From the NCBI GenBank assembly GCA_027486895.1, contig JAIXOE010000060.1, forward strand, positions 1 to 64,000: a stretch of DNA of 64,000 nt, in the 5' to 3' direction. This DNA is from Sphingomonadales bacterium (GTDB taxonomy: Bacteria; Pseudomonadota; Alphaproteobacteria; Sphingomonadales; Sphingomonadaceae). The notes under the pieces are model-generated. The model made no database searches and was not told where the DNA came from. It was given only the letters and a program-made list of their open reading frames with translations. The position numbers and the translations under genes are program-made. Below are positions 59,959 through 64,000 of the stretch, in pieces. Within the stretch, counting starts at the first letter, position 1. Every line of letters begins with the position of its first letter.

Positions 59959-62355
59959 TCCGCGAAGCACCGCGCCAAGTTTGGCGGCTGCCGCGATGAC
60001 CTTATCTGAAATCAGCTTCAGATCATCGTCACCATAGCTTTTGTCGGTGGGCTGAAGCGTGACTTCAACCGCAAGGCTGACTTGGCCGTCGGGAACGCCC
60101 TGTCCGGCAAAGCGGTCAAACAAACGCACTGCGACAATGTTGTCCTTGTCGCATCCCTTAATGGACCGAACCAGATCATTGGCTGGCGTATCTTGCGATA
60201 CCAGAAACGCAAAATCACGCGTCACGGCCTGCAATGCAGGCGGCGTGAAGGCTGGGCGCATAAAGCCGGTGGCTTTCTTGAGCGGAATCGCATCCAAAAA
60301 GATTTCCGCTGCGACAATGCTGCCATCAAGGTCGAACGCCTTTGCCGTTGCCGGATGCAACGTTCCAAATGCCGCGAGAATATTCTTCGGTCCCATGCGC
60401 AGCGTCGCCGATTGTCCGGGATGATAATGCGCACCTGCATCATCCATTACGAGCAGGCCGTCGGTTGCGACACCTGCGGCCTTCAGCAAGGCTATTGCAT
60501 CTGCCTTGGCGTCAAACGCGTCGAATTTCGTTGCCTTGCCTGTCGCCCAGTTGCGTACGGATTTGTCGCCAGCCAGCACGATGCCTGCTGTCAGGCGCTC
60601 GTCGCTTGTACCATCCGCAGCAGCGAAATAGCGGCGTCCGATTTCGAATAGCCGAACCGATGAAGCACCGCGGTCCATGTTCCGCTGCGCTGCAGAGAGC
60701 AGACCCGGCAAAAGTGAAGGTCGCATGACCTTCATGTCTTCGGAGATCGGGTTGGCAAGGCTCCAAGCGCCGCCGCCAAATGCGTCCGCTGCCTTTTGCG
60801 GCAGGAACGACCAATTGATCGCTTCGTTCAGCCCACGCGCAGCTGCTGTCCGCCGAACTTTGCGTTCCAATGACTGAACAGGCGTTGCAGTTGGCTTGGC
60901 AACGCCGTCTGCACGGGGCAATGGAACCGAAACAACATTATCGAGGCCGACGATGCGGACAACTTCTTCGACGATGTCTGCAGGGCCATCGACGTCACGA
61001 CGCCATGTCGGAACGGTTACGTACCAGTTATCGCTCACGGAAAAACCAAGTCTTTCCAATATATTGCGCTGTTCCTCTGGCGTGACATCAACGCCGCCAA
61101 GCTGCTGGCAATATTGGGTGTCATAGGAAATGTCGCGCGGCGCAACTGGCGCAGTGCCTGACCGGGTGATTGCACTTGCGGTCCCGCCGCAATGGTCAAG
61201 CACGAGCTTGGTTGCGATCGCCAACCCGTCCTCCAAGAACGCAGGGTCAACGCCGCGCTCAAAACGTTGCCGTGCATCGCTGGTCAACGCAAGCTTCTGT
61301 CCGGTGCGCGCGATATGTTCGGGGTCGAAATAAGCGCACTCGATGAGGACATCGCTGGTCGTTTCCGAAACGCCACTATGTTCGCCGCCCATGATACCGC
61401 CAATGTCATGGACCATGCTGTCGTCAGCAATGACGGTCATGCTCGAATCGAGGGTGTAGGTTTTGCCATTGAGCGCGACCATGTCCTCGCCGTCTATGGC
61501 CTTGCGCGCGACCAGTGCACCATTCAGCTTGGCGCGGTCATAAACGTGTAATGGCCGGCCAAGATCGATTGATACGAAGTTGGTGATGTCGACGAGCACT
61601 GAAATCGGCTTTTGGCCAATGGCTTTCAGCTTGCTGCGCATCCATTCGGGCGCGTCGCCATTGCGGACACCGGACACGGCTTGTGCGAAGAACGCAGGGC
61701 AGCCTGCGATGTCGTCTGTGCGCACTATCGGTGCGGGTCCACCGCCTTCGTTTGGCGCGGCAAAATCGATGCGGTAGACTTCGCTCAGTGGGCGCAATGT
61801 TCCAAGACCAGCTGCTGCGAGGTCGCGCGCGATGCCGCGAACGCCCATGCAATCCTGACGGTTGGGCGTGATGCTAACATCTATGACCGGATCATCGAGG
61901 CCTGCCCAGTCGGCATAGGCCTGGCCCACAGGCGCATCTGCCGCGAGTTCGATGATGCCGTCATGGTCATCCCCAAGCTCAAGTTCGGCAATTGAGCACA
62001 TCATCCCGTTGGATTCGACGCCTCTGATCGCTGCAACTTTCAGCACCATCCCGTTGGCGGGCACGACTGCGCCGGCTGGACCAAATACGCCAAGCAGGCC
62101 TGCCCGCGCGTTGGGTGCGCCGCACACAACCTGAAGCGGTTCCCCGCCTGCATCGACGGACAAGACCTGTAGTTTATCGGCCTGTGGATGCGGCGCTGCG
62201 CTCAGCACCTTTGCGATCCGGAACGCGGACAATTTGTCCGCTGGATTCTCGATGCCTTCAACTTCAAGCCCGATACGGTTCAGGCAATCGGCAACCGCAT
62301 GAATATCGGCGTCGGTGTGGAGATGCTCTTTAAGCCATGACAATGAAAACTTCAT
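59956..62355 (-). CDS. pheT: Phenylalanine-tRNA ligase beta subunit
   Basis: Protein of 799 aa starting [12 protein letters not shown], with the EMAP-type tRNA-binding domain ([23 protein letters not shown]), B3/B4 editing domain, B5 domain and C-terminal ferredoxin-fold anticodon domain ([29 protein letters not shown]). It forms the alpha2-beta2 enzyme with PheS. It overlaps pheS by the ATGA junction at 62352-62355. Confidence 0.96.
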
Positions 62356-63431
62356 GCGCCTACTCCTCCGCTAAGCGTCGGAACATCGAGCGCATCAAAT
62401 CCGTAATGCTGAAGCCAGCGATTATCGCCGTCGAAAAAGGCGCGCAAATCGTCCATCCCATATTTAAGCATGGCAAGACGGTCGACACCGGTACCGAAGG
62501 CGAAGCCTTGCCAAATATCAGGATCAAGCCCGCAGGCCTCGATAACTTTGCGATGGACCATGCCGGAGCCAAGAACTTCCATCCAGCCTTCCGATCCGCC
62601 AATGACGCGTTTGCCGTTGACCATCGAATAGCCGACGTCGACTTCAACCGATGGCTCGGTGAACGGGAAATAGCTTGGCCGCAGGCGCAAGACGACATCT
62701 TCGCGTTCGAAATAGGCCTTCAGAAACGTCTCCAGCGTCCACTTCAGATGACCAAGATGAATGCCCTTGTCGATAACAAGGCCTTCGATCTGGTGGAACA
62801 TCGGCGTGTGCGTAGCATCGCTGTCGCTTCGGTACACCCGGCCGGGCGCGATGATGCGAATAGGCGGTTCCTGCGACGTCATGGTGCGGATCTGGACAGG
62901 CGATGTGTGGGTGCGCAACAGCATTTTGCTGCCGTCGCGCGCCATTTCATCGGGGAAATAGAATGTGTCATGCATCGCGCGCGCAGGATGCGTTTCCGGA
63001 ATATTGAGCGCGGTGAAATTATGCCAATCGTCTTCGATCTCACGCCCTTCCGCGACTGCGAAGCCCATGTCGGCAAAAATTTCTGCCAACTCGTCCATGA
63101 CTTGGCTGACAGGGTGCACTGTTCCGCGCGGTGTTTCGGGCGCTGGCAACGTCATGTCGACATATTCGTTTGCGAGACGGCGGTTCAACTCAGCCGTTTC
63201 CAAGCCGGCTTTCTTTGCGGCCAGCGCCGTGGTGACGCTCTCGCGCAAACCATTGATGATGGGGCCTTGTGCCTGGCGTTCATCAGGTGACATCGCCCCC
63301 ATCGTCTTGAGCAATGCCGAAACGCTGCCTTGCTTACCAAGGGCGGATATCCGAACAGCCTCGAGCGCGTCCAGCGTATCCGCGGAATCAATTGCTGCCA
63401 TCAGTTCGGTTTGGAGTGTCGCAATATCCAT
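62352..63431 (-). CDS. pheS: Phenylalanine-tRNA ligase alpha subunit
   Basis: Protein of 359 aa from ATG 63429-63431 ([10 protein letters not shown]), which has GAG 6 nt upstream; an ATG at 63441-63443 lies inside the repeat element and has no usable ribosome site. Class II motifs [45 protein letters not shown], and GSGMVH with [14 protein letters not shown] are visible. Upstream, a GIY-YIG cassette separates it from rplT, its usual neighbour. Confidence 0.95.
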
Positions 63432-63437
63432 AATTCT

Positions 63438-63469
63438 CGTCATTCCCGCGAAGGCGGGAATCTAACTCC
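63438..63469 (+). repeat. Palindromic repeat, left copy (ATTCCC-N8-GGGAAT type)
   Basis: The core ATTCCCGCGAAGGCGGGAAT at 63442-63461 is a hairpin with 8-bp arms and a GAAG loop. With flanks CGTC and CTAACTCC the 32-nt element recurs inverted at 63818-63849 with 29 of 32 matches. The core fits the ATTCCC-N8-GGGAAT (dRS3) pattern known from Neisseria. It lies directly upstream of the pheS start. Confidence 0.88.
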
Positions 63470-63483
63470 CGCACGTTCATATT

Positions 63484-63807
63484 TCATAGCTGCCGCGATG
63501 GCAGAGGAAGAAAGCCCAAATCAACCGCCAAATCGTGCCAGTCGGAGTTTTCTGCCTCGATCAAGTTGATTTTCCACTGCCGATTCCATTTCTTGATCTG
63601 CTTTTCGCGCGTAATCGCCGTTTCCATAGTGCCATGTTGTTCATGCCAAACGAGCATCTTCACATTGTGGTCGGCGGTAAAGCCTTCAAAGCACCCTTCG
63701 CGATGTTGATGCATGCGTTGGACGAGATGCGATGTCACACCGACATAAAGCGTCCCATAGCGTCTGCTCGCCAATATGTAGACCGTTGGCTGGAAGTCGG
63801 CATGCAT
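63484..63807 (-). CDS. Small GIY-YIG nuclease family protein
   Basis: Protein of 107 aa. The GIY-YIG signature reads VYIL (9-12) and LYVGVT (20-25), with Arg31 and catalytic-type Glu68 (REKQIKKW). This is a complete single-domain nuclease like the stand-alone proteins often labelled excinuclease subunit C. It lies between inverted repeats: the right copy ends 10 nt before its ATG, and its stop is 14 nt from the left copy, so the gene nearly fills the space. Association with a mobile or repeat-linked function is inference. Confidence 0.88.
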   Translation of the reverse strand: MHADFQPTVYILASRRYGTLYVGVTSHLVQRMHQHREGCFEGFTADHNVKMLVWHEQHGTMETAITREKQIKKWNRQWKINLIEAENSDWHDLAVDLGFLPLPSRQL

Positions 63808-63817
63808 AAAAAGGCCC

Positions 63818-63849
63818 GGAGTTGGATCCCCGCCTTCGCGGGGATGACG
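63818..63849 (-). repeat. Palindromic repeat, right copy (inverted)
   Basis: Read on the minus strand it matches the left copy at 29 of 32 positions; core at 63826-63845 is ATCCCCGCGAAGGCGGGGAT. Two of the three differences (T to C in one arm, A to G in the other) form a compensatory pair, keeping the stem intact. Confidence 0.88.
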
Positions 63850-63888
63850 ATAATGGGTAAAACGCTGATTTCATTGACCTGAATAAGC

Positions 63889-63926
63889 AAAAGGGCGCGA
63901 ACGGCAAGTGCCGCCCACGCCCTTTT
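63889..63926 (-). terminator. Terminator after rplT
   Basis: On the minus strand AAAAGGGCG (63918-63926 read in reverse) pairs with CGCCCTTTT (63889-63897 read in reverse), with an inner CGGCA...TGCCG stem and the trailing TTTT inside the arm. It lies 25 nt after the rplT stop. Confidence 0.8.
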
Positions 63927-63950
63927 GCGCAATATCGAAGTTTTAGGAGC

Positions 63951-64000
63951 TTATGCTGCTTTCGCGAGCGCTGCCTTCGACTGCGCAATGATTGTGCTAA
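63951..64000 (-). CDS. rplT: 50S ribosomal protein L20, C-terminal fragment
   Basis: The right edge holds the last 15 codons and a TAA (63951-63953). The readable tail STIIAQSKAALAKAA matches the L20 C-terminus, and rplT is the normal upstream neighbour of pheST. The rest lies outside the window. Confidence 0.8.
   Translation of the reverse strand, partial: STIIAQSKAALAKAA

Follow-up and report, generated by a model that had tools for sequence, protein, structure and literature searches.

Organisation of the rplT–pheS junction

The window, by which we mean the whole stretch of 64,000 nucleotides that was analysed, ends inside rplT. Read along the minus strand, the order from there is rplT, a long terminator-like hairpin, a repeat, a nuclease gene, a second repeat and pheS:

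62352–63443, minus strand: pheS (the longest open reading frame starts at 63443, inside a repeat; likely start at 63431)
63438–63469, plus strand: CGTC-tagged hairpin repeat, copy 1, from sequence, fold and pattern count in its own genome (tag CGTC 63438–63441, outward, on the pheS side; stem 63442–63449 and 63454–63461; loop 63450–63453; tail CTA; inner extension ACTCC)
63484–63807, minus strand: standalone GIY-YIG (Slx1/UPF0213-like) nuclease open reading frame of 107 aa, from the reading frame, PF01541, AlphaFold2 and Foldseek
63818–63849, minus strand: CGTC-tagged hairpin repeat, copy 2, inverted, from sequence, fold and pattern count (tag 63849–63846, outward, on the rplT side; tail CCA; inner extension ACTCC)
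63889–63926, minus strand: long terminator-like hairpin after rplT, found in most genomes of the genus with or without the cassette
63952–64000, minus strand: 3' end of rplT (stop codon 63954–63952)

From tag to tag, the unit between rplT and pheS occupies 63438–63849 (412 bp). The sequence-only reading had described a 107-aa GIY-YIG gene filling a 412-bp unit with inverted 32-nt ends, and both the coordinates and the PF01541 match bear this out. It had also counted three differences between the ends, two of them restoring one type of base pair. Comparison of 63438–63469 with the reverse complement of 63818–63849 gave the same three, two of which together change a T-A pair to C-G, and each 32-nt copy folds into an 8-bp stem with a 4-nt loop. 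Extended to 37 nt, the inverted match contains four mismatches, of which one is in the outer flank. The core ATTCCC-N8-GGGAAT occurs at only four places in the 2.87-Mb genome, and the same pattern read backwards occurs at none, so two copies that face each other with their starts 387 bp apart are not due to chance. The wider pattern TYCCCGCN4GCGGGRA is found at six places in this genome.

The same reading held that the cassette splits rplT from pheS and leaves the pheS start beside a repeat. This is the case: the repeat stops a few bases ahead of the pheS start, and the longest pheS reading frame begins inside it. The upstream ATG of that frame lies within the repeat, with no clear Shine-Dalgarno sequence between it and the likely start (window 63431–63443). 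The hairpin at 63889–63926 gave a sub-threshold Rfam match to the Brucella sRNA BSnc120 (over 63875–63989; 21.7 bits, E 0.028, gathering threshold 114); as both Rfam matches in the window were below threshold, no Rfam identity was accepted.

The nuclease

The 107-aa protein matched the Pfam GIY-YIG domain PF01541 with an E value of 1.9e-14 (54.2 bits against a curated cut-off of 22.6), and this was its sole Pfam match, giving a protein of one domain. No NCBIfam model matched it at E ≤ 0.001, and a search of NCBIfam with 47 family members returned weak and varied matches only. All 47 sequences compared share residues Y10, Y21, G23, R31, H35 and E68, among them the tyrosines of GIY...YIG and the arginine and glutamate of the active site. 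The AlphaFold2 model had a mean pLDDT of 92.4. Foldseek found no match in the PDB at E ≤ 0.001, the nearest being the UPF0213 structure 1zg2 (E 1.9e-3, TM 0.52), followed by 1ywl, UvrC and Slx1, all weaker. The protein shares its minimal one-domain form and its nearest solved folds (1zg2, 1ywl) with standalone Slx1-like/UPF0213 proteins, for which roles in DNA repair or restriction-modification are predicted in passages of Dunin-Horkawicz (2006; PMC1564403). It is unlike them in that those passages make no tie between such proteins and palindromic repeats.

In ten of 11 nuclease pairs dN/dS was between 0.04 and 0.22 (dS was undefined in the other), a sign of strong purifying selection on the gene. 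Relatives were present in 29 of 45 genomes of the genus, with 60 matches in total, and a sample of 398 genomes from the phylum of the window had them in 114. The GTDB loci span alpha-, beta- and gammaproteobacteria, Planctomycetota, Anaerolineae, Ignavibacteria and Deltaproteobacteria, many of them in MAGs, while a tblastn search of 50,697 phage records gave 0 matches.

The hairpins as CGTC REPs

By their sequence, the window hairpins are CGTC-tagged REPs of family CGTC-1, like the dRS3 repeats of Neisseria. Both copies carry the unpaired end tag of the family (CGTC or TGTC), in each case as CGTC, together with the 8-bp stem, the 4-nt loop and a short CCA-like tail, CCA in one copy and CTA in the other. 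The predominance of HH pairs (convergent, with tags outward) and the rarity of TT pairs in this family also recur here: the neighbour pairs less than 1 kb apart that are listed for genomes up to G034 include at least 46 HH, no TT and one HT. The placing of the ATTCCC-N8-GGGAAT core in the dRS3 class by the earlier reading therefore stands, since tag, stem, loop and tail are those of CGTC-1.

Passages of the 2013 survey by Di Nocera, De Gregorio and Rocco (PMC3733652) equate CGTC-1 REPs with Neisseria dRS3 and Rickettsia RPE-6, and report CGTC REPs across all alphaproteobacterial orders as well as in Neisseria. According to the same passages, these repeats 'apparently lack a dedicated transposase', with RAYTs or other transposases left as possible movers. 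The term 'GIY' is absent from the main text of the survey (term search). The repeats studied here resemble those described there in tag, 8-bp stem, 4-nt loop, CCA-type tail, predominance of HH dimers, rarity of TT dimers and alphaproteobacterial bias. They differ in their genetic company: the passages give an association with transposase genes as absent, whereas here a GIY-YIG nuclease is the usual partner. A Neisseria gonorrhoeae genome holds both a nuclease relative that is 61% identical (L103) and 178 exact CGTCATTCCC-N8-GGGAATC repeats.

The earlier proposal that the hairpin is under selection is supported by covarying stem pairs in 30 repeats of one genome, G014. When the search pattern allowed any base on either side of two stem pairs, one pair was C-G in 17 repeats, T-A in 12 and T-G in one, and the other was C-G in 20 and G-C in 10.

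Hairpins beside nuclease genes

Outward-facing CGTC hairpins are concentrated next to the nuclease genes. Within 100 bp of the gene their density was 7.67 per kb at 30 genus loci and 6.18 per kb at 80 GTDB loci (the best-scoring of at least 578, and so biased towards the nuclease subfamily of the window), compared to 0.11–0.17 per kb more than 600 bp away. Inward-facing tagged hairpins were also raised near the gene, to a lesser extent (at most 2.0 per kb within 200 bp), and five control 4-nt tags produced no comparable peak near the gene at the 80 GTDB loci.

A looser finder, which accepts TGTC and CATC tags besides CGTC, placed outward tagged hairpins on both sides of the gene at 98, on one side at 29 and on neither at 13 of 140 nuclease loci, a set that holds at least one duplicate (L026 = L130). 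The same finder applied to uvrC, another GIY-YIG gene, in the same genus (30 loci, the best-scoring of 44, their gene ends set by the longest open reading frame) gave 0, 5 and 25, respectively. When CGTC alone was counted, the figures became 86, 32 and 22 of 140 for the nuclease and 0, 1 and 29 of 30 for uvrC. A strict finder, which misses AT-richer stems, returned 44 loci with hairpins on both sides, 16 upstream only, 17 downstream only and 33 with none, out of 110. In a test free of any tag, the best flanking inverted repeat scored at least 15 in 110 of 135 loci (five of the 140 were left out for N or short flanks) and in none of 270 dinucleotide shuffles; a score of at least 13 was reached in 53 of 58 scorable genus loci, against a null rate of 0.37%.

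The association weakens with distance from the subfamily of the window. The 28 top-ranked loci had hairpins on both sides in 20 cases, on one side in six and on neither in two, while 20 lower-ranked relatives, hand-picked from the phylum sample as a counter-sample, gave four, six and ten, with some inverted repeat scoring at least 15 in 11 of the 20. Most of the 13 hairpin-less loci belong to more distant subfamilies, and several have another palindrome instead.

GC-rich intergenic hairpins are common, and the pattern could be put down to chance or to ordinary intergenic terminators. That the enrichment is specific to tag and orientation, that the uvrC and shuffle controls are clean and that stem bases covary make this explanation barely credible. 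Rather, the positions of the hairpins identify the GIY-YIG family, as far as sequence comparison can tell, as the usual partner of CGTC-tagged REPs.

Co-variation of enzyme, hairpin and copy number

Hairpin distance increased with protein distance over 120 loci (Mantel r 0.524, 0 of 2000 permutations), after 20 of the 140 had been left out because no tagged hairpin lay within 160 bp or the protein was shorter than 80 aa. For 44 of the 60 genus loci, the partial correlation given the PheS distance of the host was r 0.670 (0 of 2000 permutations), and host distance against hairpin distance in the genus gave r 0.046. Nucleases paired within one genome (25 pairs) had a mean hairpin distance of 0.42; for similar nucleases in different genomes (181 pairs) the mean was 0.12. 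Nucleases sharing a genome thus have unlike hairpins and similar nucleases elsewhere have like ones, and therefore repeat identity tracks the enzyme and not the host.

Repeat number also follows the cognate nuclease, by Mann-Whitney tests over 45 genomes in which genome relatedness is ignored. The median number of CTGAA repeats was 31 in the 18 genomes with the cognate nuclease versus 6 in the 27 without (p 0.0008). For CCCGC repeats the medians were 8 (10 genomes) versus 0 (35 genomes; p 0.0002), and the p value was 0.0013 once the cassettes' own ends had been removed. Presence of the non-cognate nuclease in the 45 genomes did not predict repeat number (p 0.62 and 0.19). Orphan repeats, with no cognate nuclease detected, reached 51 CTGAA copies in G020 and 35 CCCGC copies in G023. 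In G033 and G011, which have a CTGAA-type nuclease, there were few or no repeats (0 and 6, respectively).

Short dimers and deletion derivatives

The spacings of the listed HH pairs cluster at 61, 66–67 and 83–84, and only three of these pairs are wider than 100 bp; all three are nuclease cassettes, at 360, 387 and 389. Among 20 dimers whose sequences were retrieved, many show inner ends that covary (for example CCAACTCC/GGAGTTGG or CCATCACC/GGTGATGG); some of the 20 contain at their centre an AAATTT that recurs at one cassette 3' end.

These pairs bear on the idea that the repeats owe their movement to a RAYT or another transposase, with the nuclease as one of several passengers between HH ends. 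Passages of the 2013 survey leave room for such movement (PMC3733652), and many genomes have repeats without a nuclease of the window's family. The wide HH pairs listed nevertheless hold the nuclease in three cases out of three, repeat type tracks the nuclease, and the presence of the nuclease predicts the number of cognate repeats only (the gene survey covered this nuclease family). We regard a passenger role for the nuclease as very unlikely.

The clearest view of the family came from Sphingomonas sp. IC081, in which 12 of 14 exact-pattern repeats form six HH pairs. Two of these are nuclease cassettes 0.93 Mb apart (spacing 356), and the other four, at 106–118, retain both termini of the nuclease reading frame but lack its middle. 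Judged by what they share, the six dispersed copies are a family of autonomous and internally deleted units. The shared unit continues for about 50 nt on the outer side of the left tag in six copies, and for about 75 nt on that of the right tag in five (without L371); because it extends past both tags, the hairpins of IC081 are subterminal and the tag is not the end of the unit. At the right end of L124, in IC081, tandem units of about 20 bp lie at the right REP. The genome of L127 (G444) holds tandem REP arrays with units of 32–33 nt (C25:100740-100863 and C34:22456-22608). A Methylophilaceae genome has a single cassette, whose two ends are its only exact-pattern repeats, as might be expected of a founder.

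The six copies of IC081, similar, dispersed and with shared ends, are in this respect like those of an insertion sequence. Unlike a classical insertion sequence, the 82 cassettes examined showed no excess of target-site duplications of lengths 1–9. Some insertion sequence families, e.g., IS200/IS605, make no target-site duplication. Outside the tag, similarity dropped near to background within 1–3 bases, both among 20 CCCGC dimers from the genus and among 10 CTGAA dimers from G014. The base before the tag was a pyrimidine in 87% of 164 cassette ends and 93% of 60 dimer ends, and G was depleted upstream of the tag. Comparisons of filled and empty sites gave no clean insertion from which to read the exact point, the bases beside the tags being too divergent.

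The strongest rival to a mobile element is an autoregulated or domesticated nuclease, with the flanking hairpins as binding or RNA-processing control sites, no self-transposition and repeats spread by other means; the dispersed hairpins would then be genomic targets of the nuclease, for instance in hairpin clean-up or repair. Such a nuclease would be expected to show the same co-diversification and position pattern, its strong purifying selection would fit, and the weak fold matches to UPF0213, UvrC and Slx1 include repair nucleases. Regulation alone would not make dispersed dimers that keep both ends of the nuclease reading frame, that is, deletion derivatives. Nor does it sit well with a similar unit at six dispersed loci, or with a genome whose exact-pattern hairpins lie at cassette ends only. 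On balance we consider this rival improbable.

Occupancy of sites is polymorphic. At the fnrL/response-regulator junction of Sphingobium plasmids, seven records have the gene and four have both flanks without it, and 11 dimers of G014 (four of them aligned: D1, D2, D7 and D9) also vary in presence and absence. Two Sphingobium plasmids (L205 and L206) carry a double-tag palindrome, CGTCACCCCGGGTCAAGCCCGGGGTGACG in L205, where sister plasmids carry a cassette; it has the look of the two end hairpins collapsed into one. Similar double-tag hairpins were seen at L167 and L299. The groES–groL junction holds a CTGAA HH dimer in G014 (D2) and a dimer of another hairpin in G017, G000 and G012 (L247–L249); here one repeat family replaces another at one site.

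The junction across the genus

Of 45 genomes searched, 44 had a pheS match, and six of these (G000, G007, G021, G027, G037 and G042) have the cassette before pheS. Eight have a single, sometimes degenerate repeat and a scar that fits deletion through the short repeat GTGAAWTTTA, two (G018 and G025) have a gene-less dimer, and 22 have a short junction with no repeat. Two further junctions (G005 and G043) lack a whole repeat, and four were not classifiable as rplT was not found in the stretch.

A homing-type element is another reading of the cassette. On that reading the nuclease cuts the uninterrupted rplT–pheS or another allele, homologous repair copies the cassette, and the hairpins are passive or terminator-like. 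Homing endonucleases do belong among the GIY-YIG enzymes (passages of PMC1564403), and the cassette occupies the same intergenic spot in the six genomes although PheS of the other five is only 63–81% identical to that of the window (163-aa query). The closest nuclease, in G027, is 85% identical and its PheS 65%, whereas seven species with PheS 96–98% identical (163-aa query) have no cassette. Against this, the family has members at many further sites, gene-less dimers are dispersed, and with host distance controlled for, the type of hairpin still varies along with the enzyme. One old insertion followed by losses and local recombination would also account for the shared site. The window nuclease shares the catalytic fold and a mobile context with homing endonucleases of the I-TevI type, but differs from them in its 107 aa and one domain, with no intron or intein, its own repeats at the ends and many sites. 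Homing has, in our estimation, only a slim chance of being correct. The copy at rplT–pheS is probably an old insertion now in decay, with repeated decay in many lineages and local recombination, which fits the pattern at this locus better than a recent jump.

A proposed REP-like element with a GIY-YIG nuclease

We consider it likely that the 412-bp unit is a REP-like mobile element with the GIY-YIG nuclease as its only protein, working like the RAYT/REP system with another enzyme. The sequence-only reading had suggested that this may be a self-spreading unit, and neither of the two outcomes that it named as counting against mobility was found. Empty sites exist in the genus, where 22 of 44 rplT–pheS junctions are short and free of repeats. 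Repeats elsewhere are linked to nuclease copies by position, orientation, sequence type and number, and there is a dispersed family with deletion derivatives. Its analogy to RAYT/REP pairs with a different enzyme remains apt, the gene being flanked by and matched to its repeat.

Co-diversification suggests that the nuclease acts on the hairpin, and from this we infer the steps of binding, nicking and transposition, and their route. The two CGTC hairpins, in convergent order with tags outward, would form the element ends. The nuclease would most likely recognise its own hairpin by sequence and structure, perhaps in single-stranded DNA such as the lagging strand, and nick next to the tag (Y|CGTC). 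Single-stranded sites that are G-poor and pyrimidine/A-rich might then receive the HH unit, either released or as a copy. Internal deletions would give rise to short HH dimers of about 60–145 nt tag to tag, mobile in trans; such dimers would account for the majority of copies in the genomes examined, and solitary repeats would be dimer remnants. REP/RAYT and IS200/IS605 mobility is strand-specific and prefers single strands. The pyrimidine, low-G flank and the lack of target duplication hint at a similar process here.

Several known systems offer a comparison. RAYTs (TnpA-REP) are Y1 HUH enzymes whose REPs have the tag GTAG, and inverted pairs of these REPs are non-autonomous units. RAYTs with their GTAG REPs and REPINs are alike in that an enzyme gene is flanked by, and matched to, its presumed substrate repeats. 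They are unlike in enzyme and in tag: PF01541, not a Y1 HUH domain, was the sole Pfam match of our nuclease, the window tag is CGTC, and no GTAG peak appeared at the 80 GTDB loci. GIY-YIG nucleases are not known to use covalent tyrosine–DNA chemistry. MITEs (NEMIS/CREE) are also short gene-less derivatives with inverted ends, and their parents encode a DDE transposase; here the ends are tagged hairpins, no target duplication was found and the parent encodes a GIY-YIG nuclease.

To our knowledge, no GIY-YIG enzyme is known in the role of a dedicated repeat partner. A search of the open-licence literature (preprints excluded, few subscription journals) found no report of a GIY-YIG nuclease paired with CGTC REPs. 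Within passages of two later REP papers (PMC6006769, PMC12306157), CGTC is mentioned only where the 2013 survey is cited. What would be new is the GIY-YIG enzyme in the role of dedicated partner; pairs of a repeat and its enzyme are themselves known.

Wider occurrence and implications

Distant small GIY-YIG genes of the genus (32–45% identical; L193, L194, L196, L198 and L199) stand between other inverted palindromes, CGTAGCCCTGAGCTTGTCGAAGGGC, CCGTTCGTCCTGAGCTTGTCGAAGGAT and CCGTTCGTGTCGAGCGAAGACGAGACACC, weakly so for L193. The own genome holds a gene of the same group (L197, C19:82442-82678), and L044 and L195 have no flanking palindrome. Further subfamilies (L181, L184–L187, L179 and L182) have the ends GTGTKCCCCGGCGMAGGCCGGGGTCCAG, CAGTGCTCCGCACTTGTTGCGGAG or, weakly, GTCATTGCGAG...CGAAGCAATC. 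The association of GIY-YIG genes with palindromes may cover several classes of dispersed repeat. In the own genome, the GIY-YIG part of uvrC has a degenerate CCCGC palindrome some 0.2 kb upstream (C21:14169, L012); at uvrC in relatives, hairpins on both sides were found at 0 of 30 loci.

A widespread class of hairpins, whose spread has hitherto been unexplained, probably has its missing partner in the GIY-YIG family. With about even odds, standalone GIY-YIG nucleases may drive the transposition of prokaryotic mobile elements that form a class of their own, taking in the CGTC REPs (dRS3 among them) of several phyla and, by way of other subfamilies, dispersed palindromes like CTGAGCTTGTCGAAGG and GTGTKCCCCGGC, each nuclease lineage evolving with its own hairpin. 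A candidate enzyme for CGTC REPs makes the question of their origin testable with one 107-aa protein and short oligonucleotides. If the proposal is true, GIY-YIG would join the short list of chemistries that move bacterial DNA hairpins, in the form of a minimal protein/hairpin pair whose rules of specificity could be read from sequence, and a function could be given to genes whose sole annotation is 'GIY-YIG nuclease family protein'.
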